Positions 1-30,543 of a stretch of DNA of 34,873 nt are shown piece after piece. Below the pieces are notes generated by a model that did not search any database, was not told the origin of the DNA, and saw nothing but the letters and a program-made list of their open reading frames with translations. Numbering within the stretch: the first letter of the stretch is position 1; each line of letters starts with the position of its first letter. The translations under genes were made by a program, and so were the position numbers. Origin of the DNA: Ignavibacteriota bacterium (GTDB taxonomy: Bacteria; Bacteroidota; Ignavibacteria; UBA10030; UBA6906); NCBI GenBank assembly GCA_003152875.1, contig PMBF01000066.1, positions 1-34,873 of the forward strand, read 5' to 3'.

Positions 1-978
1 AACCAGGCCACCGTCTCGGCCCGCTTCGGCGGACGTATCGAAAAGCTGTATGTGAATTTCACCGGCGACCTCGTGCGCCGTGGCCAGCCCCTCTTCGAAT
101 TGCACAGCCCGGACCTTGTCTCTGCGGAACAGGAGTATGTGCTCGCCCTCCAGGCGGTCGAAAAAGCGGGGATCACGGACGCGTCCCTGCGCGCGCAGCA
201 GGAGAGCCTCCTGCAGGCCATTCATGAAAGGCTCATGGTCCATTTCGGACTGACCGAAGGGCAGATTGCCGCTGTGGCCGGATCGCGCTCCGTCCACTCC
301 AATGCGGTCTTCTACTCGCCCATGCGCGGAACCGTGATCGCCAAGCAGATTCAGGAAGGTCAGTATGTGAGCGAAGGCATGGTGCTCTACCAGCTGGCAG
401 ACCTCTCCACGGTGTGGGTGATCATCGATGTCTATGAATCCAGCATCCGCAGTGTCAGGGTTGGGCAGCCCGTTGTCGTGACCACCGAGGCATATCCGAA
501 TGAGACCTTCTCGGGCAGAGTGACATTCATCGATCCGTCCGTGGACCCGGAGAACAGGACTGTCCGGGTGCGCACGGAGTTCTCCAATCCCGGCGGAAAG
601 CTCAGACCGCAGATGTTCGTCAGGGCCAGGGTCACCGTCCCCTCCGTGCCTGGCCTCGTGATTCCAGCCTCAGCGGTCCTCGCCACAGGACGGCGTAACG
701 TCGTCTGGGTGGAAGTGAGGCCGAACGTCTTTGAACCCCGCGACGTGGTGTTGGGAATCAGGACGGACGATGCCTGCCAGGTGCTGAGTGGGCTGAGCGA
801 AGGGGAGCAGGTTGCCGTGACAGGGGGTTTCATGCTCGACTCGGAATCCCAGCTCCAGCAACCCGCGGGCGGACAGCACCAGCCCCCTGCGGTTCCGGCA
901 GCTCCGTCCCGGGACACGGCGGTCCCTCCCGCAGAGGGCGGACCCCGTGCGGTCAGGATCGATGTCAACGTCGACTGA
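1..978 (+). CDS. cusB: CusB-like RND efflux periplasmic adaptor, 5' end missing
   Basis: The frame is open from the first base, so this is the C-terminal 325 residues of a membrane-fusion (adaptor) protein; its signal peptide and first strands lie outside the window. The visible part starts in the lipoyl/barrel-sandwich half (ARFGGRIEKLYVNFTGDLV, then LFELHSPDLVSAEQEY). A helical hairpin follows, then the returning lipoyl half (SPMRGTVIAKQIQEGQYVSEG), a beta-barrel (VWVIIDVYE, IDPSVDPENRTVRVRTEF) and a membrane-proximal domain. The tail is rich in Gln, Pro and Ala and contains one His. Adaptors of this family link an inner-membrane RND pump to an outer-membrane channel and pass Cu(I)/Ag(I) to the pump. 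The stop lies 10 bases before the CusA start, so the two are almost certainly co-transcribed. The Cus assignment rests on the neighbours as well as on the sequence. Other heavy-metal adaptors (CzcB type) are the main alternative. Confidence 0.9.
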   Translation, partial: NQATVSARFGGRIEKLYVNFTGDLVRRGQPLFELHSPDLVSAEQEYVLALQAVEKAGITDASLRAQQESLLQAIHERLMVHFGLTEGQIAAVAGSRSVHSNAVFYSPMRGTVIAKQIQEGQYVSEGMVLYQLADLSTVWVIIDVYESSIRSVRVGQPVVVTTEAYPNETFSGRVTFIDPSVDPENRTVRVRTEFSNPGGKLRPQMFVRARVTVPSVPGLVIPASAVLATGRRNVVWVEVRPNVFEPRDVVLGIRTDDACQVLSGLSEGEQVAVTGGFMLDSESQLQQPAGGQHQPPAVPAAPSRDTAVPPAEGGPRAVRIDVNVD

Positions 979-988
979 GGGCACTCCC

Positions 989-3900
989 ATGATTGAAAAG
1001 ATCATCGATTTCTCCGCGCGCAACAAGTTTCTTGTCATCCTCGCCTACGTGATCATCGCCGGGTGGGGGATCTGGGCGGTAGTCAATACGCCGCTCGATG
1101 CCATCCCCGATCTCTCGGAAAACCAGGTCATCGTCTTTACCGAGTGGATGGGAAGGTCCCCCCAGCTCGTCGAGGACCAGATAACGTTCCCGCTTGTGAC
1201 AGCCCTCCAGGGAGTGCCGCAGGTCTCTGCCGTCCGTGCGCAGTCCATGTTCGGGATGTCGTTCATCTACATCATCTTCAACGAGAAGACAGACTTGTAC
1301 TGGGCGCGGAGCCGGGTGCTGGAAAAACTCTCTACTGTCCAGTCAGGCCTGCCGCAGGGGGCGAAGATGCAGCTCGGACCCGACGGGACGGGAGTCGGGC
1401 ATGTCTTCTGGTACACCCTCGAAGGGAAACAGGACCTCGGGACGCTTCGGGCGATTCAGGACTGGTATGTCAAACTGAACCTTCAGGGAGTGGAAGGTGT
1501 CGCGGAAGTTGCTTCCGTCGGCGGCTACATCCGCCAGTACCAGGTCGACGTCGACCCTGTGAGGATGAAAGGGTACGGCGTCACGCTGGCGGATATTCAA
1601 ACGGCGGTCATGCGCTCCAACAACGATGTCGGCGGAAAGATCCTGGAGGTGTCCGATGCGGAGTATTTTGTCCGCGGGCAGGGCTACATCCGGAACACGC
1701 GCGACATCGAAGACATCGTCGTGGGGACCGGCCCCGGAGGGGTCCCGGTCTATGTCAGAAATATCGGCACCGTCCAGATGGGGGGTGATATCCGCCGCGG
1801 ATCTCTGGACAAGAACGGCACCGGCCAGGTCGTGGGCGGGATCATCGTGATGCGCACCGGTGAAAACGCAAAAGAGGTGATTGACCGCGTCAAGGAACGG
1901 ATCCGGCAGATCTCCCCCGGCCTGCCCGACGGCGTGGAGATCAAGACTGCATACGACAGAAGCGATCTGATCAACGCCTCCGTGGAGACGCTGAAAGACG
2001 CTCTGCTCGAAGAGGCGGCGGTCGTCGGCATCGTCGTCTTCCTCTTCCTCCTCCACTTCAGAAGCGTCCTCCGGATCATCATCGAGATCCCCGTGGCGGT
2101 GTTGATGGCCTTTATCTGCATGAGGCTGTTCGGCATCACGTCCAACATCATGTCGCTCGGGGGAATCGCCATCGCCATAGGGGTGATCGTCGACGCCTCG
2201 ATCGTGCTGGTGGAGAACGCCTACCGCAATGTGGCCAGGGCCCAGGAGACCAAGGGCCACCTCACGAAGGAGGACTTCGTGGAGATCTCCATCCTCTCGG
2301 CAAAGCAGGTCGGCAGGGCTATTTTCTTCGCCGTGACGATCATGGTGGTGTCGTTTCTGCCGGTCTTCCTGCTTGAAGGTCAGGAGGGAAAGCTCTTCCG
2401 CCCGCTGGCCTTTACGAAGACGTTCGTGTTAGGCAGCTCCGCTGTCATCGCCATCACCCTTGTCCCCGTCCTCATGGTTATGCTCACCCGCGGGCGGTTC
2501 CGCCGGGAGAACGAGAACCCGATCACCCGCTTCCTGAACCGCCTCTACACTCCCGCCATCCACTGGGTGCTGGGCCATCGCAAGACCACGATCCTGATCA
2601 ACATCCTTGCCCTCCTGATCACGATCCCGATGATCATGCACACGGGCTCCGAGTTCATGCCGCCGCTGGATGAAGGGAGCCTGCTGTTCATGCCGGTTAC
2701 GCTGCCCTCGGCCTCCCTGACGGAGGTGAACCGCGTGCTTCAGGTCCAGGATGCCATCATCAAGTCGGTGCCCGAGGTGGAACAGGTCCTGGGCAAAGTG
2801 GGGAAAGCGGAGACATCGACCGATCCGGCTCCGGTGAGTATGATAGAAACCATCGTGCTCCTCAAGCCGAGGGACCAGTGGCGCAAAGGCAAGACGAAGG
2901 ATGACATCATTGCCGAGCTGGATGCGAAGCTCCAGATCCCCGGGGTCCGCAACGGGTGGACCCAGCCGATCATCAACAGGATCAACATGCTCTCGACCGG
3001 GGTCCGGACCGATCTCGGCGTGAAAGTCTTCGGCAAGGACCTTGACACGCTGGAGAGGCTCGCAATCGACGCTGAACAGATTCTCAGAAAAGTACCGGGC
3101 GCCGCCGATCTCTACGCCGAGCGGACGCAGGGAGGGCTCTTCCTGGACATCAAGATCAACCGGCAGCAGGTCGCCCGCTACGGCGTCAACGTGGGGGATG
3201 TTCAGGATATCATCGAGACTGCCATCGGCGGCCAGAATATCGGCACAGTCATCGACGGCCGCCAGCGCTTCCCGATACGTGTCCGTTATGAGCGGGAGTG
3301 GCGGGATAACATCGACAGACTGAAGTCTCTTCTCGTGCCGGTGGCCATCGGCCCCTCCCGGCAGCAATCCGGTTCCCCGGCACAGGCGGCGGCTGCCAAT
3401 CCCGCGTCAGGGATGACCGCAGGCATGGGCGGGGCTCCGGCTCCGGAAGGTTCGGGCGCATTTTCGGGCGGCCCGCAAACCGCTGCCGCCGGCGCGTTCC
3501 CGGCCGTATCGCGGCGCAGCTACGTCCCCCTTTCACAGGTCGCCGAATTCGAGATCGTCCCCGGAGCCCCCATGATCTCCAGCGAGAATGCTCAGCTCCG
3601 CTCCATCGTCTTCCTGAATGTTCGCGGACGGGATATGGGAGGATTTGTGGGGGAGGCCAGGGAGGTCCTTGCCAGGGAGCTCAGGCTTCCGCCCGGTTAC
3701 ACGGTGCAGTGGAGCGGACAGTGGGAGAACCAGATCAGGGCAAAAAAACGTCTCGAGGTTCTGATGCCCATTGTGTTCGTGATCATCTTCGTGATGCTCT
3801 ATCTTACGACCAGGGACTTCACCGAAGCCTTCGTGGTCATGCTTTCGGTCCCCTTTGCCCTCATCGGGGGTGTCTACCTCATTTACATTCTCGGGTATAA

Positions 3901-4330
3901 CTTCTCTGTCGCCGTCTGGGTGGGGTTTATCGCCCTCTATGGCGTTGCGGTGCAGACTGGCGTCGTGATGGTGGTCTATCTCCACGAGGCGCTCGACAGA
4001 AGACTCCGCGCCCATCAGCTCGGACAGCGGGGACCGATCACCGCACAGGATATCTACGATGCCACGGTGGAGGGTTCCGTGCTCAGGCTCCGCCCCAAGA
4101 TCATGACCGTAGGGACGGCGTTGATCGGCCTGATTCCCATCATGTGGAGCACCGGTGTCGGGGCCGACGTGATGAAGCCGCTTGCGGCGCCGATGATCGG
4201 CGGCCTCCTGACATCGACAATCCACGTGCTGGTGGTGACCCCCATCCTCTTCACCTTCATGAAACTCCGTGCGCTGAAAAAAGGGACCCTCGAGATCTCG
4301 AAAATGGCGCAATGGATGAAGGAGGAATGA
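989..4330 (+). CDS. cusA: CusA-like heavy-metal RND efflux pump
   Basis: Proton-driven inner-membrane pump of the heavy-metal efflux RND family, 1113 residues from the ATG at 989. That start gives the family-typical N-terminus MIEKIIDFSARNKFLVIL; an upstream start at 947 would overlap cusB. Visible hallmarks are TPLDAIPDLSENQVIVFTEW after TM1, the TM4 segment GVIVDASIVLVENAYRN with its proton-relay Asp, the periplasmic MPPLDEGSLLFMP motif, and twelve predicted membrane segments in two halves. Its partner adaptor lies directly upstream and a metal-binding exported protein directly downstream, which favours monovalent copper/silver export. No outer-membrane CusC is visible in the window. Unusual for the family is a stretch of about 58 residues, roughly 787-844, very rich in Gly, Ala, Pro and Ser, in the second periplasmic loop. 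It makes the protein longer than E. coli CusA (about 1047 residues). Specificity for Cu/Ag rather than Co/Zn/Cd is inferred. Confidence 0.93.
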   Translation: MIEKIIDFSARNKFLVILAYVIIAGWGIWAVVNTPLDAIPDLSENQVIVFTEWMGRSPQLVEDQITFPLVTALQGVPQVSAVRAQSMFGMSFIYIIFNEKTDLYWARSRVLEKLSTVQSGLPQGAKMQLGPDGTGVGHVFWYTLEGKQDLGTLRAIQDWYVKLNLQGVEGVAEVASVGGYIRQYQVDVDPVRMKGYGVTLADIQTAVMRSNNDVGGKILEVSDAEYFVRGQGYIRNTRDIEDIVVGTGPGGVPVYVRNIGTVQMGGDIRRGSLDKNGTGQVVGGIIVMRTGENAKEVIDRVKERIRQISPGLPDGVEIKTAYDRSDLINASVETLKDALLEEAAVVGIVVFLFLLHFRSVLRIIIEIPVAVLMAFICMRLFGITSNIMSLGGIAIAIGVIVDASIVLVENAYRNVARAQETKGHLTKEDFVEISILSAKQVGRAIFFAVTIMVVSFLPVFLLEGQEGKLFRPLAFTKTFVLGSSAVIAITLVPVLMVMLTRGRFRRENENPITRFLNRLYTPAIHWVLGHRKTTILINILALLITIPMIMHTGSEFMPPLDEGSLLFMPVTLPSASLTEVNRVLQVQDAIIKSVPEVEQVLGKVGKAETSTDPAPVSMIETIVLLKPRDQWRKGKTKDDIIAELDAKLQIPGVRNGWTQPIINRINMLSTGVRTDLGVKVFGKDLDTLERLAIDAEQILRKVPGAADLYAERTQGGLFLDIKINRQQVARYGVNVGDVQDIIETAIGGQNIGTVIDGRQRFPIRVRYEREWRDNIDRLKSLLVPVAIGPSRQQSGSPAQAAAANPASGMTAGMGGAPAPEGSGAFSGGPQTAAAGAFPAVSRRSYVPLSQVAEFEIVPGAPMISSENAQLRSIVFLNVRGRDMGGFVGEAREVLARELRLPPGYTVQWSGQWENQIRAKKRLEVLMPIVFVIIFVMLYLTTRDFTEAFVVMLSVPFALIGGVYLIYILGYNFSVAVWVGFIALYGVAVQTGVVMVVYLHEALDRRLRAHQLGQRGPITAQDIYDATVEGSVLRLRPKIMTVGTALIGLIPIMWSTGVGADVMKPLAAPMIGGLLTSTIHVLVVTPILFTFMKLRALKKGTLEISKMAQWMKEE

Positions 4331-21264: not shown

Positions 21265-21942
21265 CTCTGCCTCATAGCCACCCGCCTTGACCTCAATCTC
21301 ACGGATGAAGTTCTACGGCAGATTCGTGCCGCTGGCGCCGATGAGCGGATCCGTCACTTCGACACCATCGACGAAGTACTTGTTCTCAAACCCGGTAGCT
21401 CCTGCAATGTTCACTTCATCCCCGAAGAAGCTCGTATTGGACTGCAGGAGTAGCGATATCATGCTCCTATAATTTCTCTCGACGGGGAGATTCTCGAAGT
21501 CCGACGGACGAAGGTTGGAACCATATGTGGTCGTGCGAGGGTCGATGCTCAGCTGTTGACCTGAAATCACCAGTTCCGGCATATCATGGGTCCGTGCCAG
21601 AACCCGTATCTCACCTAGACTGGTGGTCTTCCCCAGCTGAATGAGAACTTCCTCAAAAACGACCGGCTGATAAGCTGTGTGGCTCAGGCGCACGGTAATC
21701 TTGCCTGGAGCCAGGGCGAGAACACTGCAGAAGCCGAGATCGTTGGTGACCCCGCCCCGGACGCCCTGGACATTGGGTCCTGTAACGACGGCGTTCACGC
21801 CGGGGACCGGATCGCTCAGTGAATCGATCACGCTGAATCGCAGATCACCCGTCACGAATTGCGCGTGAGCGCTTCCGTGAAAGGCAAAAAGCTATACCAT
21901 GAGCAACGGGGCGAGCGTGGCAACGGCAGTGATAGGGCGCAT
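21265..21942 (-). pseudogene. TonB-dependent receptor, N-terminal remnant with two amber stops
   Basis: From an ATG at 21942 with AGAGGTG upstream, the minus strand reads a signal peptide (MRPITAVATLAPLLMV, stop, LFAFHGSAHAQ). A carboxypeptidase-regulatory-like beta-sandwich follows: FSVIDSLSDPVPGVNAVVTG, then KITVRLSHTAYQPVVFEEV. Next comes a TonB-receptor plug: MPELVISGQQLSIDP, NTSFFGDEVNIAGATGFENK, YFVDGVEVTDPL. The frame is broken by TAG at codon 17 (21894-21892), inside the signal peptide, and by TAG at 21315-21313. Both sit where Trp, Tyr or Gln-type codons would be natural. After the second stop, homology continues as NFIREIEVKAGGYEAE and then ends abruptly at about 21265. The whole beta-barrel (roughly 600 residues or more) is missing. 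It is non-functional unless amber codons are read through, and even then it is truncated. Confidence 0.85.
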
Positions 21943-23035
21943 AATGCACCTCTCAGAGAGTCCTCTGTCGTAGTTCGAATGCGATTCTCCGGTTATTGAA
22001 TATGTTGACAGCTTATTTCATCGGAGACCCCTCACGATGAGAGAGGATTCACGGTTGAAGAAATCGCAGGGCCTCCCCTGTACACAAACACCTCACTCAG
22101 CACGGACTCGGAAACCGCTGCTAGAGGGCGGAGTCTTGATCTGGCATTACGCTTCTCAGGCCACGAGTGCTGGTACAGTGGAGCGAAGAACGACTGTGCT
22201 CCGATGGTCGGAAGGAAAGCTCTTGAGCAGAATCCTTTAGCCGTGAAAGGAAAGGCACGGGATCGTGATCATCGTGTGCTCGAAACCCTCCATACTGCGA
22301 AGCCAGGGATATTCCAAACAAGTTCGCCAAGTGGGGGTTTTTTGGTCAACTATTCCCTTCTTTTCTTTTCCGCATCGGAATTGGTTGCTACAAGAACAGA
22401 GAGGCAAAAGTCCATGCATAGGCGACAGTGGCTCCCTCCAATCCCGTGCGTCGGTTAAGCTACCAGCCATTCTGAGTCTTCATCATCTGCCGGATCTCTC
22501 GGTCAGTTGGGCCTTCGATGTGATCCAAGCCTTCAAACCCGCCAAATTCAGCCCGCCTTGCTAGGATTTCCAACCATGGTGATTGCTGGAAGCGGTTCCA
22601 TTCCCAGCCTGCCACAGAGGTCACTCATCGCGCTCAAACAAAAAGCCATCCCGAATCGGAGACGGCTTATGATTGGTCCCTGTACAGAACAATGGGGAAA
22701 GCCCGGACTCCTCATTCGGGTTCCCTGCATCGCCAACAACGACATATCCCATCAAACAACGGACCCCACCCGATTCCCCCTTCTATCTCGACTCGGCGGG
22801 TGTGGGTGCGGCGTGCGACAGCGTCGTTCTTCTTACATCCTCGGCCTGCTCTGAAGGATTGGTATGGGCCGCGGGGTTCCAGTGCTGAAGGACTCGCTGC
22901 CGAATCGGTCCCCGTGGACTGCGAGGAACGGGATGGCGTTCAATTTCATTTGCCTTCTTCGCGGAATCTTCATATGGTTTGACCATACCCTCTCCCAAAG
23001 TACGGTGGAACCACTCAACCCATTGGAGCGCCCTC
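21943..23035. other. About 1.1 kb without an intact gene
   Basis: Base composition and the six frames show no complete gene with a ribosome site. Apart from the 54-codon frame at 22460-22624 nothing recognisable was found. A minus-strand frame at about 22783-23035 (with WVEWFHRTLGEGMVKPYE) is weakly protein-like but lacks a start signal. I read this as decayed intergenic DNA between the TonB remnant and the methyltransferase. Confidence 0.5.
22460..22624 (-). pseudogene. Short orphan frame, probable gene fragment
   Basis: A 54-codon minus-strand frame (GTG start possible) reads GWEWNRFQQSPWLEILARRA, then EFGGFEGLDHIEGPTDREI, and ends MKTQNGW. Amphipathic spacing and several Trp and acidic residues make it look like real protein, but no ribosome site is present and no family is recognised. 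It may be the C-terminus of a lost gene. Confidence 0.28.
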
Positions 23036-24160
23036 ATGTCAAAGATCCAACGCCCGCATGACATCGTGTCCGGCCCCATGTCTTCACTCGAACCCCTCAT
23101 CGAACGGTTGAACACCTTTTCAGCAGACAACTACTGGGACCTGGGAAAATTCCTTGCCGAAAAGGTCATCCCGGCAGCCCTGGAAAAGGGGATCTTTGCG
23201 GAGCAGATCCTCAAGCGCATGGCGGAAATGCCGGGTTTCAAATTCCCATTCTCGCTGCTGAAACAGTGCCAGCGCTATTACAGCTACTATCCCGACGTGG
23301 AAACGAGGCCTCTCCCCGAGCTCTTCTACTATGAGCTGGCAACGAAGGTGGAGGACAGCAAGAAGCGCGACCACTATGAGAAAATGGCGGTTGCGAACAA
23401 GTGGACTATCTCCGATCTGCAAAAAAGAATCCGTGAAGATGAGCAGGCACGCCGGGAAGACGAAAAAACAAGCTACGGATTCGATCGCAAGGAGAAGAAC
23501 ATCTGGTCATTCGACACTTCCGATCCGCGGTTCGGCAAGCCGGCCGCCAAGGGTCGCCTGCCTGGACAGATTGTGGCGAACGCGCTCTTCTACTATACCC
23601 AGCCCGGCTGGACGATTGTGGACCCCATGGCAGGCAGCGGAACTACGGGGGATGTGATTGAGTCGGTCAGCTGTTTCGAGGACCGGAAGTGCCGCATGTA
23701 CGACATCGAACCATCGGACGACCGGATAAAGAGGAGCAATATTCTGCAGACGGGCATCCCGGAAGAGACCGGAAGCGTCGACTACGTGTTCCTCGATCCC
23801 CCTCATGATTTCTACCCCCGGGGACTCGAACCCGGGTATTCGGCCGCGGCGGCACAATCGGATACCATGAGAAAGCTCAAGGCCATTCTCCGGGAGAGCG
23901 TTCGCATCATTAAGCCCGGCGGGCGGGTTTCGATCATTGTCGAGGTGACTAGCGGACCCTCCGTCTTCATCGATTCTCCCTTTGAAGTCACCCTGCTGGC
24001 ACGGGAGCTCGGGGTTGTGCAGATCGGCAAGGTCTACCTGCCCCGGCGAAGCGATTCGACCAGGCAGTTTTCATCAACGCATGATGCTAAATCGCTCCTC
24101 TCAGAATGCCGGGAGCTGCTCACATTTGAAAAACGAACTCCACAGGCTGCACAAAACTAA
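23036..24160 (+). CDS. Solitary DNA methyltransferase-like protein with DPPH motif
   Basis: A 374-residue protein; TTGGAG precedes the ATG at 23036. Residues about 15-90 (ADNYWDLGKFLAEKVIPAAL, then FPFSLLKQCQRYYSYYPDV) resemble the DUF1016/YhcG N-terminal domain, a DNA-associated helical module. From about 155 comes a class I methyltransferase core in gamma-like order. A motif X-type segment (IWSFDTSDPRFGKPAAKGRL) is followed by motif I VDPMAGSGTTGD (about 195) and an acidic MYDIEPSDDR. Motif IV is LDPPHDFYPRG (Asp254 to His257), followed by IKPGGRVSIIVEV. The usual amino-methyltransferase motif is (D/N/S)PP(Y/F/W), so His at the fourth place is unusual and may alter base stacking or specificity. 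No restriction enzyme is adjacent. DNA adenine-N6 or cytosine-N4 methylation is the likely reaction; loss of activity is possible. Confidence 0.8.
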   Translation: MSKIQRPHDIVSGPMSSLEPLIERLNTFSADNYWDLGKFLAEKVIPAALEKGIFAEQILKRMAEMPGFKFPFSLLKQCQRYYSYYPDVETRPLPELFYYELATKVEDSKKRDHYEKMAVANKWTISDLQKRIREDEQARREDEKTSYGFDRKEKNIWSFDTSDPRFGKPAAKGRLPGQIVANALFYYTQPGWTIVDPMAGSGTTGDVIESVSCFEDRKCRMYDIEPSDDRIKRSNILQTGIPEETGSVDYVFLDPPHDFYPRGLEPGYSAAAAQSDTMRKLKAILRESVRIIKPGGRVSIIVEVTSGPSVFIDSPFEVTLLARELGVVQIGKVYLPRRSDSTRQFSSTHDAKSLLSECRELLTFEKRTPQAAQN

Positions 24161-24230: not shown

Positions 24231-24671
24231 CTAGGGCGCTTCCATGGGCAGTTTCTTGCCTGACTTGACAATTTCGACCGCCTGGGCGAACCTGGTGTGG
24301 AATGTGGACTCGGTCAGACCCGTCGCGAGGTTCGTCTGCATCTTCCTTTTTGTCACGATCGTGACTTTGCTGTTCCCTTTGCCCGCCGGTTCCACCCAGA
24401 CCCCGACGACACTCCCGGCTGAGACTAAATTCGCTCCAACGGTCGTCAGCATGTAGCCATCCTCCCGGTGCTCTTCAATCGTCTCGGCCCCTTCCCAGTG
24501 CAGGACCGTCATGGCAGTGCTCCATGCTCTGTCCGGACTAACCGGATAGTTCCGGACTGTCCCTTCCGCTTTGTTGCTCAGGACATCGCTCATTGTCGCA
24601 CAGCCGGGCTCTGAGTATTGTCCGTCCATCCTCCGGGAAGCCTCCACATTCAAAGTTGCCTCTTCGGGCAT
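24231..24671 (-). CDS. Putative lipoprotein-like protein lacking a clear signal peptide
   Basis: A frame of up to 146 residues. Its core begins PGCATMSDVLSNKAEGTVRN, looking like the first residues of a mature lipoprotein (Gly-Cys-Ala-Thr). Alternating strands and helices follow: SPDRAWSTAMTVLHWEGAET, EEHREDGYMLTTVGANLVSA, SVVGVWVEPAGKGNSKVTIV, then HTRFAQAVEIVKSG. Such small beta-rich domains occur in DUF3568-like periplasmic lipoproteins. However, the 27 residues before the Cys are polar and give no membrane signal. Either the signal has been lost, making this a degenerate gene, or translation begins at an internal Met, such as the one after CAT. It lies 70 bases from the methyltransferase stop, in convergent orientation. 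Confidence 0.55.
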   Translation of the reverse strand: MPEEATLNVEASRRMDGQYSEPGCATMSDVLSNKAEGTVRNYPVSPDRAWSTAMTVLHWEGAETIEEHREDGYMLTTVGANLVSAGSVVGVWVEPAGKGNSKVTIVTKRKMQTNLATGLTESTFHTRFAQAVEIVKSGKKLPMEAP

Positions 24672-24999: not shown

Positions 25000-27900
25000 A
25001 TGGCGCATACGTTGAATGTTCTCGAGCGTCATATCTTCGGTCTGTTGGTGTTGCTCCAATCGTCTGCTGCAATTGCTCAGCCGTCCCCTCAGGAAGCCGG
25101 CCGTCCCTTCATCACTACCTATAGCCAGAAGCAAACCGGGGGACAGTTCCAGAGCTGGTCATTTATTCAGGACAGCAGGGGAGTGATCTACGTCGGGAAC
25201 AACGCAGGGGTCCTTGAATTCGATGGGACCAGCTGGCGGCTGATCGAAACCGCGCAAAGCAACATTGCCCGGTCTCTGGCCATCGACAGCCTCGGACACA
25301 TTTTCGTGGGCTCGACAAATGATTTCGGGTGGCTCCTGCCCGACAGTACCGGCAAGCTCCGATATTTTTCCCTTTTCGGAAATGTTCCGGAGCCGGAACG
25401 GGAATTCAGCTACATATGGACGGTCCGTGCCCTCGACGGCGGCGTCTATTTCCAGTCGCGAGAACGGATATTCCGTCTGAAGCTGGTCGATTCCTCCAGG
25501 CAGAGCTCCCTAGGTGATACCGTTTCGTCGACCTCCGATCGGACAACCGTATCCCCTTCTGCCGGGGAAAAGCCGGAACATGCCGGGCCTTCGTGTCAAG
25601 TGAAGGTCTGGAAACCGGTGGGCCGCTTCGGCTACGCCTTTGTCGTCGGCCATACCTACTATGTGCAGCAAGGGGGGGTGGGGCTGATGAAAATGGAAGG
25701 CGATTCCCTGAAACTCCTCCCGGGAGGGGAGCAGTTCGCTGAAGAGCGCTTGCAGGTCATGCTCCCCTTCGTACGGGGCGGACCGGAAGGGGAGAAGGCG
25801 GTGATCCTCGTCGGGACGTTCAACAGGGGACTTTTCCTATTTGATGGCCGCTCGTTCCAGCCGTTCAAAACGGAGGTTGATGAATTCCTCAAGAGCAATA
25901 CGCTGTATGACGGGGCCCTGCTCCCTGACGGGAGCATCGCATTCGCAACCCTGGTCGGGGGGGTTGTGGTCATCGACCGCCAGGGACACCAGCTGGTCGC
26001 GTTGAATCAGCGGGCGGGCCTGACCAGCAATTCGGTCAACGCGCTCTTCGTCGATCATCACGGGCTCCTCTGGGCGGCACCCGAAAACGGCATCAGCATC
26101 ATTGAAACACCTTCCCCGCTTTCCCGCTTCGACGGTGCCTCAGGTGTTGTCGGCGCCGTTTCGGATATCATCAGGCATAAGGGGATCCTTTATGCGGCGA
26201 CTTCAAACGGGCTCTATTTCCTGGATCGACACACATCAGCCTTCAGCCCGGTCTCCGGCTGGCTTCCTGGGAACCGGCAGGCTTTTGCCCTCATCCCTAT
26301 GGGCGAAAGACTTCTCGCCGCGATGGGGACCGGTGTGTACCAGATCGAGGGATCCCGGGCCTCACTCGTGAGGGCAAATGCTCGCGGAACCTCGTTCAAT
26401 CCGATCTCCCTTCTCCGGTCGCGGCAGGACTCCAACCGGGTGTTCGTGGGTCTCTTCGACGGACTCGCCTCCCTTCGCCTCGAGAGGTCCGGCCGGTGGA
26501 TCGACGAAGGGAGGATACAAGAGATTCAAACGTACGTGTTGCGGATGGCCGAGCCTGAACCGGGCGTTCTCTGGCTCGGGACCGCGGATACGGGGCCGAT
26601 CCGTATCCGGTTTGAAGGTCCTTCCCTGGAACATCGCGCCGTTGACCATTTCGGCCCGGAGCAGGGCTTTCAGGCCTCGGGAGGTTCCTCCGTCTACAAT
26701 GCAGGAGGGAGGCTCTTTGTCACTTCCAAAGCGGGGGTCTATCGTTTCGATGATGGCAGCCAGCGATTCATCCTCGATTCCCTGATGGCCGGCATCGGCG
26801 TGGGAGGCTCGCCAGACGAGTACCAGATCAAAGAGGATGCCCGGGGAGACCTGTGGGTCAATATCGGCCGCGAGAGCGCGATCTTCAGGCGGCAGGTCGA
26901 CGCGACGTACCGGGTCGACAAGACGCCGCTCCTCCGGTTTGCCGACGTGCAGTCGACGGCTGCGATCTATCCGGAAGCCGACGGCGTGGTCTGGTTCGGC
27001 AATGCAGAGAGCATCATTCGCTATGACGCAAACCTCCAGAAAGATTACGGTGCCGGATTTCCCTCCTTGATTCGCCGGGTTGTTGTGAATGAGGACTCTG
27101 TCCTCTTCGCCGGAGCGGCATCGTGGGCGGGGCGCCCGTCGCCCCGGCTCCCGCACAAGGAGAACGCCCTCCGCTTTGAATTCGCCGCTACGCATTTCGA
27201 GAATCCCACCGAGACACAGTTCCAGGTCATGCTCGAGGGCTTCGACCCGCACTGGTCAGCCTGGAGCAAGGAGGCGAAGAAGGACTACACGAACCTTCCG
27301 GAAGGAGCTTACCGGTTCCGCGTCCGGGCCTTGAACATCTACCAGCACGTCAGCGAGGAAGCGTCGTTCGGTTTTTCCATCCTCCCGCCCTGGTACCGGA
27401 CGTGGCCGGCCTATGGGCTCTATGCCCTGGCATTTCTCGGAGCCGCCTTCGGCATGGACCGGTTGCAGCGCCGGCGCCTGATCAGGAAAGAGCGCCGGCA
27501 GGCCCGGCTGCGCGAAGCTGAACTGCGCGCCAAGGCGGCCGAAAACCTTGCGCAGTCGGAACGGGAACGCAAGAAGAACGTGGAGCTCCTGAGTGAGATC
27601 GGCCGGGAAATTACCGCCTCGTTGGATTTTGACACGATTTTTTACCGGTTGTACGAGCGTGTCAACCAGCTGGTCGACGCTTCGGTCTTCGGGGTCGGAA
27701 TCTACCATCCGGAGACCCAGGAGATTGAGTACCGCCTCGCCGTGGAGAAAGGCAAACGGTACGCTCCCTACTCGCGGGATGCCCGGGACAGAAACCAGTT
27801 CCCTGTCTGGTGCATCGAGCACCGGGAGGCGGTCTTCATCAACGATGTCAACGTGGAATTCGGCCGCTATATAGGGGAATACCGGGACCCCCGGAGGCTG

Positions 27901-28944
27901 CTTGAGGACGGCAGCTACTCCGAGGCCCCTCAGTCGCTGATCTATCTTCCGCTTATCGCCCAGGAGCGGGTCCTCGGTGTGATCACGGTCCAGAGCTTCC
28001 GCACTCACGCCTACACCGACGTGCATCTTTCGATTCTTAAGACCCTTGCGGCATATTCCAGCATAGCTCTGGATAACGCCGACGCGTACCGAAGGCTGAA
28101 CGCCACGCTCGAGAACCTGAATGCCACGCAGGAGCAGCTGGTGGCACAGCAGAAGCTTGCGTCTCTGGGCGCCCTGACGGCCGGGATCGCTCACGAGATC
28201 AAGAACCCTCTAAACTTTGTGAACAATTTCTCGGAACTTTCGCTGGAACTCCTTCAGGAGCTGAGAGAGGAGTTGAGCAGGGGGAAAAACGCTGAACAGG
28301 CCGCTCAGGATGATGCCATCGGAAGCCTTCTGCGGGATCTGGAACAAAACGCGATGAAGGTCAACGAACACGGAAAGAGGGCGGACAGCATCGTGCGAAG
28401 CATGCTCCAGCACTCGCGCGGCCGGACCGGGGACCGCCAGGAGACCGATATCAACGCCATGGTAGAGGAAAACCTCAACCTGGCGTACCATGGAACGCGC
28501 GCCCAGAATGCGGAGTTCAATATCAAGATGGAGAAACTGCTGGATCCCTCCATCGGCAAGGTTCGCGTGGTTCCGCAGGACCTGAGCCGGGTGCTTCTGA
28601 ATGTCATTACCAACGGCTTCTATGAGGCGCACCGGAAAAAGAAGGCCTCAGGCCCGGACTTTGCGCCGATCCTTACGGTCAGCACCCGGAACCTGGGAGA
28701 TACCATCGAGATTCGGGTTCGCGACAACGGCAACGGGATTCCCCCCGCAGTGCGTGAGAAGATCTTTACCCCCTTCTTCACAACCAAGCCCACCGGCCAG
28801 GGGACCGGTCTGGGCCTCTCGCTCAGTCACGACATCGTGGTAAAGGAACACCACGGAAGCATCAGCTTCGAGAGCGAAGAAGGGGCGTTCACGGAGTTCA
28901 TTATCAGGTTGCCGAAGAACGGGGCTTCGCACCGGGAAAACTGA
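25000..28944 (+). CDS. Propeller-type sensor histidine kinase with GAF domain
   Basis: A 1314-residue membrane sensor. An N-terminal signal-like segment ([18 protein letters not shown]) is followed by a long extracytoplasmic region of two-component-regulator propeller repeats, about residues 35-700 ([60 protein letters not shown]). A Y_Y_Y domain (about 715-795, [20 protein letters not shown]) and one membrane helix (about 797-818) come next, then a coiled coil and a GAF domain (about 865-1025). The HisKA motif [19 protein letters not shown] holds phospho-accepting His1065, and the ATPase domain has [20 protein letters not shown] and [10 protein letters not shown]. It probably senses an extracellular ligand, by family precedent a poly- or oligosaccharide. 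No receiver is fused; two receivers are encoded immediately downstream and should be its targets. Confidence 0.93.
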
Positions 28945-28986
28945 ACACGCCCTCCCCGCAGACATTGGCACCAACGGAGACAAGGC

Positions 28987-29361
28987 ATGAAAGTTTTGGT
29001 GGTCGACGACGAACAGGATATCCGCCTGCTGTTTCTCCAGAAATTCCGAAGGGAGCTCAGGGCCGGCCAGCTGGAGCTGGAATTTGCGCTCTCAGGCGAG
29101 GCGGCCCTGGAATACCTCGACAGGCAGGGAGCGGCGGGACGGGAACTCATCCTGTCCGATATCAACATGCCCGGCATGAACGGCATCGAATTGCTGAAAA
29201 TCGTCAAGCACCGCTATCCCATGTTGAGGGTCTTCATGATCACCGCCTACGGTGATGAAGCGTATTTTACTTCCGCCATGGAGAACGGGGCCGACGACTA
29301 CCTGATCAAGCCGATCGAATTCGAGCGGCTCAAAGTCAAAATGTCCAGCATGCAGGCATAA
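28987..29361 (+). CDS. Single-domain response regulator
   Basis: A 124-residue receiver: MKVLVVDDEQDIRLLFLQKF with the acidic pair, phospho-acceptor Asp58 in LILSDINMPGMNG, MITAYGDEAY, and the Lys in YLIKPIEF. It starts 42 bases after the kinase stop and ends 12 bases before the next gene, so it belongs to the operon. It is closely similar to the receiver half of the next gene, sharing VVDDE, LQKFR and SDINMP/TDINMP, which suggests tandem duplication. It may act as a phosphate sink that tunes signalling to the PP2C regulator. Confidence 0.93.
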   Translation: MKVLVVDDEQDIRLLFLQKFRRELRAGQLELEFALSGEAALEYLDRQGAAGRELILSDINMPGMNGIELLKIVKHRYPMLRVFMITAYGDEAYFTSAMENGADDYLIKPIEFERLKVKMSSMQA

Positions 29362-29373
29362 CGGGTGGAGACT

Positions 29374-30543
29374 ATGCGATCGAGGATCCTTGTCGTAGAT
29401 GATGAACCGGACGTGGAGCAGCTGGTCCTTCAGAAATTCAGGAAGCAGATCCGTGAAGGGTCGCTCGTGTTCGACTTCGCACGGAATGGCCTTGAGGCGC
29501 TCCGGAAGCTTGACGAGGACCGCAGCATCGGTCTCATCCTGACCGATATCAACATGCCGGAGATGGATGGCCTCACGCTGCTGCAGAAGATCGAGGACCT
29601 GGAAAATCCCGCTCTGAAGGCCGTGATTGTCTCGGCATACGGAGACATGGAAAACATCCGCCGGGCGATGAACTACGGCGCCTTTGATTTCATCACCAAG
29701 CCGATCGACTTCAACGATCTGGAGATCACGATCGCCAAGACGCTGAAGCATCTGGAGATGATCGAACGGGCGCGTCAAGACCACCAGAAGCTGGTGGCGG
29801 TCCAGCAGGACCTGGCCATTGCCTCACGCATCCAGTTGTCAATCCTTCCGCGCGTGTTCCCGCCATTCCCGGAGAGAAAAGAATTCGCCCTCTATGCGGC
29901 GATGACACCGACGAAGGAGGTGGGCGGCGATTTCTACGACTTCTTCTTCATCGACGGCGAACGGCTCGCGCTGGTGGTGGGGGATGTCTCCGGAAAGGGT
30001 GTGCCTGCGGCAATTTTCATGGCCATGTGCCGGACGCTCCTGAAAGCCCTTGCGCAACAGGTGGTGAATCCGGGCGAGTGCCTGCGGCGGCTCAACACCA
30101 TCCTGGCCTCGGAGGGCGACACGTCGATGTTCGTCACAATCTTCTACGGCGTCCTCAATACCCGCACCGGTGAGCTGCAGTACAGCAGCGCGGCCCATCC
30201 GGCCCCCTGCCTTCACCATGCCGACGGGAACGTCGAGCTGCTCGAGCAAGTCGGGGGAACGCTCATCGGGATGATGCCGAACCTGGAATACGATGTGAAG
30301 CGCATAGCCCTGCGCCGCGGGGATACCCTCTTCCTGTATACCGACGGGGTAACGGAAGTTATGAACGAGTCACAGGACCTCTTTGCCGAGAACAGGCTCC
30401 TGGAGTGCCTGAAGCAGTCCTGCGGGTATCCTCTGGAAGAACTGACCCGGCGGACGTTTCAAGAGCTGAATGCCTTCGGCGGAAAAGAGATCCACGCCGA
30501 CGACATCACCATGCTTGTCGCACGGTACTTCGGCCCGCCCTGA
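29374..30543 (+). CDS. Response regulator with PP2C/SpoIIE-type phosphatase output (RsbU-like)
   Basis: About 389 residues from the ATG at 29374 (GTGGAG three bases before; a GTG at 29365 would add three residues). The receiver at residues 1-120 has Asp58 in LILTDINMPEMDG and the Lys in FITKPIDF. A coiled-coil linker (IERARQDHQKLVAVQQDLAI) leads to a SpoIIE/RsbU phosphatase domain from about 175. It has metal-binding KEVGGDFYDF and GDVSGKGVPAAIFMAM, TLFLYTDGVTE, and the closing HADDITMLVARY. Such proteins dephosphorylate STAS-domain anti-sigma antagonists, so phosphorylation by the upstream kinase would feed into a partner-switching cascade. No anti-sigma factor, STAS protein or sigma factor is seen in the window, so the target lies elsewhere. 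Confidence 0.93.
   Translation: MRSRILVVDDEPDVEQLVLQKFRKQIREGSLVFDFARNGLEALRKLDEDRSIGLILTDINMPEMDGLTLLQKIEDLENPALKAVIVSAYGDMENIRRAMNYGAFDFITKPIDFNDLEITIAKTLKHLEMIERARQDHQKLVAVQQDLAIASRIQLSILPRVFPPFPERKEFALYAAMTPTKEVGGDFYDFFFIDGERLALVVGDVSGKGVPAAIFMAMCRTLLKALAQQVVNPGECLRRLNTILASEGDTSMFVTIFYGVLNTRTGELQYSSAAHPAPCLHHADGNVELLEQVGGTLIGMMPNLEYDVKRIALRRGDTLFLYTDGVTEVMNESQDLFAENRLLECLKQSCGYPLEELTRRTFQELNAFGGKEIHADDITMLVARYFGPP

Follow-up and report, generated by a model that had tools for sequence, protein, structure and literature searches.

The 34,873-nucleotide contig PMBF01000066.1 (assembly GCA_003152875.1) of an Ignavibacteriota bacterium, analysed whole and referred to here as the window, carries on its plus strand a genuine gene with an ATG start whose product combines a DUF1016_N domain with a degenerate methyltransferase domain (Table 1). 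Upstream of it, on the minus strand, lie genes for MBOAT and AMP-binding proteins together with a small carboxypeptidase-regulatory-like ORF, the last 1.2 kb or so ahead of the gene holding only small overlapping ORFs. Downstream, a short convergent ORF without a match is followed by genes for a sensor kinase, a stand-alone response regulator and a second one joined to a SpoIIE phosphatase, which may constitute a partner-switching cascade. A scan of 10 neighbouring ORFs of the window revealed neither a nuclease nor a defence gene, and PADLOC returned no match at 1e-5. This agrees with the preliminary description, in which the gene was regarded as an orphan with no adjacent nuclease, and a restriction-modification methylase with an adjacent cognate nuclease was rejected on the same 10 ORFs.

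Table 1. Positions in the window of the gene, its domains and motifs, and other features; f1 to f6 and f10 are labels for host families.
Feature	Position	Strand	Basis
Gene for 374-aa DUF1016_N and degenerate methyltransferase protein	23036..24160 (stop included)	+	24 full-length relatives, 53-73% alignment identity
DUF1016_N domain, all-helical, about residues 20-144	23093..23467	+	Pfam 33/33 members; hhalign to YhcG N-domains; model pLDDT 89
Methyltransferase (Rossmann) domain, about residues 147-366, motif order X-I-IV	23474..24133	+	Pfam N6_N4_Mtase 32/33; fold matches
DPRFG...GRLPGQ signature ahead of motif I	23522..23569	+	Alignment; common to phage ParB_N-methyltransferase MW202554
Motif I DPMAGSGTTG (SAM loop), residues 196-205	23621..23650	+	Intact in 27/27 f1-f3 members, 4/12 f10 members
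Degenerate motif IV DPPH, residues 254-257	23795..23806	+	Residue 257 non-aromatic in all relatives read
HlyD/CusB-type adaptor and AcrB-type RND pump	52-4330	+	
Small overlapping ORFs ahead of the gene	21856-23035		No Rfam match
146-aa ORF directly after the gene, convergent	24231-24671	-	No Pfam match
1314-aa Reg_prop/Y_Y_Y-GAF-HisKA sensor kinase, lone response regulator, response regulator-SpoIIE phosphatase	25000-30543	+	

In Pfam searches, residues 23-135 of the window protein matched DUF1016_N (PF17761; E 4.4e-7, 30.5 bits, slightly below the curated cut-off of 32.8), and residues 127-210 matched N6_N4_Mtase (PF01555; E 9e-7, 29.5 bits, above the cut-off of 26.7). When 33 family members were searched at E <= 1e-3, DUF1016_N was recovered in all of them (best E 4e-9) and N6_N4_Mtase in 32, and when the family N-domain (35 rows) was compared by hhalign with the N-domains of 15 YhcG-type proteins from related genomes, the probability was 100% (E 1.5e-40), so that neither domain can be regarded as a chance match. 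The YhcG-like N-terminal module proposed in the preliminary description was thereby upheld in profile comparison. YhcG, which with the other DUF1016 nucleases is catalogued as PDC-S02, is described in PMC1189080 as having a helical N-domain without a known fold and a C-terminal PD-(D/E)XK nuclease domain; the window family shares the former, but has a methyltransferase domain in place of the latter and does not belong to the YhcG nucleases. No nuclease family appeared among the Pfam matches of the window protein or of the 33 members, nor was a ParB_N CTPase domain found in these members, in which DUF1016_N and N6_N4_Mtase were the only matches. The suggestion that the DUF1016-like module replaces a target-recognition domain (TRD) did not hold, the nearest methyltransferases having no obvious separate TRD: these are single domains of about 230-300 amino acids, or else viral proteins extended at the N-terminus (by ParB_N in MW202554). 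In the window protein 48 residues separate motif I from motif IV and 117 lie beyond motif IV.

The genome containing the window (3.96 Mb, 97% complete) encodes one copy of the gene. A full-length protein was retrieved from 25 of 60 relatives, this genome counted, comprising 10/21 in f1, 5/5 in f2, 10/10 in f3 and 0/24 in f4-f6, with one partial match in f4 confined to the methyltransferase part. Among 391 genomes of the class (E <= 1e-20), 39 matched with one copy each (nine in f1, five in f2, 13 in f3 and 12 in f10), and among 395 genomes of the phylum (E <= 1e-30) there were nine matches, the window's own genome included, all within the same class. A family profile matched 12 of these 395 genomes, the three additional hits being short DPPY/DSPY methyltransferases lacking DUF1016_N; absence is judged here from the sampled genomes of the class and phylum. 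A scan of genome contigs with strict peptide patterns taken from the window protein located eight loci, and a PF01555 search (E <= 1e-5) for a candidate catalytic partner in the window's own genome and one other (G014) gave no match, the query gene itself also being missed. The named relatives are metagenome assemblies titled Ignavibacteria/Ignavibacteriae, Chlorobi or Bacteroidetes.

When motif IV was left out of the tree, each of the four host families formed a single clade with support of 97-100. Since the gene clades correspond to host families, inheritance has been largely vertical, the gene having been lost from some of f1; it is passed on vertically, as a single copy per genome, within a single bacterial class, which most record titles name as Ignavibacteria. 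Searches with the window protein retrieved no match from 72,556 plasmids or, as a single-protein query, from viral contigs, and a mobile or defence gene was rejected on these grounds. The family profile reached at least 12 loci in viral contigs, none of them full-length among the matches listed, and the single strong phage match covers the methyltransferase domain alone. At the 33 loci where the gene was called (some contigs being counted twice; one further locus had no gene call), the neighbours were metabolic-looking and differed by family. For instance, an acyl-CoA dehydrogenase lay upstream in 9/12 f2/f3 genomes, a pterin-4a dehydratase downstream in 5/10 f1 genomes and a B12-binding protein upstream in 6/6 f10 genomes; neighbours were named by eye except for GlmS, SDR and the pterin-4a dehydratase, which were confirmed with Pfam. 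As no neighbour was common to all families, a fixed partner gene was ruled out.

Of the 40 family copies known, one (G677) is cut short by a contig end and lacks motif IV, and the remaining 39 were read at the motifs, one of them (L127) from an internal Met; four of the f10 sequences were counted for motifs only and stand outside the tree and the dN/dS analysis. The combination of an intact motif I with a non-canonical motif IV, which had first drawn attention to the window protein, was confirmed. The fold and the SAM-binding motif I of the N6/N4 amino-methyltransferases are present, with motif I intact in 31/39 sequences, but a motif IV of the form (D/N/S)PP(Y/F/W) was found in 0/39. Residue 257 is S in 11 sequences, A in nine, D in seven, T in four, H in three, E in three and K in two, and is never aromatic, whereas Tyr occupies the same alignment column in all 10 intact-looking outgroup methyltransferases (five short chromosomal, five viral). 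His257 is restricted to the window protein and its two closest relatives, from three genera. The question of whether His is conserved among homologues is therefore answered in two parts, in that it is not unique to this sequence, nor is it conserved, and the trait common to all 39 is that the aromatic residue has gone; a conserved His chemistry was accordingly ruled out. An m5C chemistry was ruled out as well, as the sole near-invariant Cys of the family (C78) sits in the N-domain.

The tree required at least 13 changes at residue 257, placing it at the 93rd percentile of variability (the median site having four changes), and the adjoining sites are nearly fixed. In f1-f3, D254 was found in 27/27 members and DPP in 26/27, P256 and motif I also being conserved, and residue 258 is acidic in 35/35 sequences and residue 259 is Phe in 31/35. 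Decay has gone further in genus g47 of f10, where D254 was lost in 6/12 sequences, P255 and with it DPP in 10/12, and the strict motif I in 8/12. Motif IV there reads DLPx, ALPD, NLPD, NLPA, NLPx or DPPE, and motif I takes forms such as DPFATDGT and DPFAAGGT. Between eight f10 sequences, identity was lowest in motif IV (0.63) and highest in DUF1016_N (0.86). These 12 sequences (L059-L064, L042, L043 and L126-L129) form a natural series of enzyme decay, in which most members have lost motif I and/or DPP and the protein is kept.

Whole-protein dN/dS ranged from 0.019 to 0.081 in the 10 of 13 pairs for which it could be estimated; dS was saturated in the other three and exceeded 1.5 in several more, so that those values are rough. 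The reading frame is open in all 39 sequences, and together with the low dN/dS where measurable this ruled out a pseudogene or a sequencing error. The family is thus conserved, vertically inherited, catalytically degenerate and strongly selected.

The aromatic residue of motif IV is reported in PMC10050889 to stack onto the flipped base, and non-aromatic substitutions to damage activity, the N360A-W363A double mutant of M.PtoI being severely compromised. In CamA, an active orphan methylase, the motif is NPPY and Tyr168 stacks on the adenine according to PMC8187626, an intact aromatic that the window family lacks. The family is also compared with METTL14, which is described in PMC5023411 as having a degenerate site, EPPL, and as kept for a non-catalytic role; it shares with the window family a DPPx-type motif without an aromatic residue, but is eukaryotic and a partner of METTL3, whereas the window family has no fixed neighbour across host families.

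Among sequences nearer to the family, viral ParB_N-methyltransferase fusions have a methyltransferase domain of the same type; that of MW202554.1 (UOF78520.1, annotated ‘chromosome partitioning protein parB’) aligns with residues 157-302 at 35% identity (E 6e-18) and shares a DPRFG...GR.PGQ signature with the family. The viral fusions retain DPPYW, with an N-terminal ParB_N in MW202554, whereas the window family has DUF1016_N and no aromatic residue. Short methyltransferases that occur alone in the same class (L034, L035, L087-L089) agree with the family in motif order, L034 and L035 being 31-33% identical to it over some 147 residues, but keep DSPY or DPPY intact and lack DUF1016_N. Searches of the literature on DUF1016/YhcG, pseudomethyltransferases and Ignavibacteria methyltransferases yielded, among the matches listed and judged by title and abstract, no description of a DUF1016_N-methyltransferase family. 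To our knowledge, few bacterial DNA-type methyltransferases are recognized as conserved non-enzymes.

Since the key residue has been lost in every relative read and strong selection nevertheless persists, the protein probably performs a non-methylating, DNA-binding role. A methyltransferase fold, a degenerate catalytic motif and purifying selection, which together characterize pseudo-methyltransferases, were all found, and on balance we favour a domesticated pseudo-methyltransferase passed on by vertical descent and comparable to METTL14, which would bind nucleic acid rather than methylate amino groups. What the family inherits vertically is a methyltransferase of the same kind as the phage and solitary DPPY enzymes, fused to a DUF1016_N domain. 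With the base-stacking aromatic of motif IV gone, amino-group methylation would have been lost; DUF1016_N would bind DNA (or RNA), and the methyltransferase fold would provide a scaffold or a surface for nucleic acid. Binding of SAM may persist in most members, and those of f1-f3, with motif I intact, could function as a SAM-responsive switch, the protein acting as a stand-alone chromosomal regulator. Several points speak against a domesticated pseudo-methyltransferase. A purely structural protein need not have retained DPP and motif I, as the f1-f3 members have; the acidic residue 258 and the mostly Phe residue 259 mean that a shifted aromatic could take over stacking; some activity is compatible with a non-aromatic residue at this site in the M.TaqI variants and the RlmL domain considered below; and the putative DNA binding is drawn from fold resemblance only, the net charge of DUF1016_N being near zero in f1 and f2 examples. 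The interpretation offered in the preliminary description is partly supported.

Members of this family display graded decay under steady purifying selection, from DPPS/A/T/H/K to DLPx, ALPD and NLPx with a broken motif I, and these stages make a non-catalytic function directly testable. An automatic label of ‘DNA methyltransferase’ would mislead methylome work on these bacteria.

The strongest competitor is a methyltransferase that is still active, with an altered chemistry or substrate (such as a base in RNA or a side chain in a protein) that makes the motif IV aromatic dispensable. In fold comparison the methyltransferase domain scored highest with the RNA methyltransferases Trm11/TrmN/Trm14 (Z 14.1-14.7 over 156-165 residues, rmsd 2.5-3.0), and the second domain of RlmL, an active m7G enzyme, carries DPPT (FIDPPTF), in a weak alignment (E 0.04). 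With D254, P256 and motif I retained in f1-f3, the pattern at residues 258 and 259, and this non-aromatic DPPx in an RNA methyltransferase domain, an altered chemistry stays a real rival, albeit an unlikely one. By sequence, however, the domain groups with N6/N4 amino-methyltransferases having DPPY or DSPY, residue 257 drifts over S, A, T, H, K, D and E with no preferred chemistry, and the methyltransferase domain has no invariant Cys, an absence that speaks against m5C chemistry. The gene is moreover retained in f10 despite the losses there, and as motifs I and IV have decayed within one genus under purifying selection, a non-catalytic protein fits better than an altered chemistry or an RNA-directed enzyme.

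A weakly active, slow orphan adenine methylase of regulatory function, CcrM- or Dam-like, appears improbable. CcrM and Dam are vertically kept without a cognate nuclease, and the single-copy vertical inheritance of the family resembles that of CcrM, but both are active enzymes with the aromatic residue of motif IV intact. The Y108A/G variants of M.TaqI are reported in PMC3036652 to have reduced rather than abolished activity, which leaves some room for such an enzyme; against it stand the complete loss of the aromatic residue in 39 sequences, the lack of a recognizable TRD and the decay in f10. A role in defence, anti-restriction or as a decoy, the last two entertained in the preliminary description, is hardly credible, for although DUF1016_N proteins are listed as candidate defence system PDC-S02, the PADLOC models of which match residues 22-136 (best E 1.7e-9), this is a fixed chromosomal gene, passed on vertically amid metabolic-type neighbours, with no full-length plasmid, phage or viral match (in the viral profile scan, among the matches listed).

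The full-length structure model (33 sequences; pLDDT 73, pTM 0.56) comprised an N-domain made entirely of helices and a methyltransferase domain with a Rossmann fold, and the N-domain was also modelled alone, from 17 sequences (pLDDT 89). Foldseek gave no significant match for the N-domain, the best being Noc (E 0.53), with ParB/Noc in 11 of 19 rows. In the VIA comparison 15 rows exceeded Z 5, of which 12 were ParB/Noc/Spo0J DNA-binding domains (Z 6.9-9.3, rmsd 3.4-5.8) and the other three Raf1; such Z values in helical domains may reflect merely a common arrangement, and folds missing from VIA lists carry no weight as evidence. By hhalign, the N-domain of the window family reached only 0.7% against ParB, its best control scoring 7.8%, so that kinship of this domain with ParB is unsupported by sequence. 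The DUF1016_N model bears a weak resemblance to ParB/Noc DNA-binding domains that we treat as a lead, and it is suggestive that the phage protein most closely matching the methyltransferase domain is a ParB_N fusion.

A more elaborate proposal, which we advance tentatively and consider rather doubtful, is that of a bacterial METTL14-type protein found throughout the lineage, SAM-sensing in f1-f3 and SAM-free in f10, derived from a phage-type ParB-methyltransferase and bound to the chromosome through a ParB/Noc-like DUF1016_N, which would couple DNA binding to methyl-donor status. Were this true, the DUF1016_N of YhcG would also be a ParB-type DNA-binding domain, and the ParB/Noc hint, if confirmed, would provide a mechanism for this widespread domain. 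The YhcG-type N-domains, when compared with the ParB HTH region by hhalign, scored 33.8% (P 4.3e-4), 18 control families reaching at most 0.7%, and in these sequences (L036, L110-L118 and L121-L125) the weak match to chromosomal ParB extended over about 48 columns in the C-terminal part of both.
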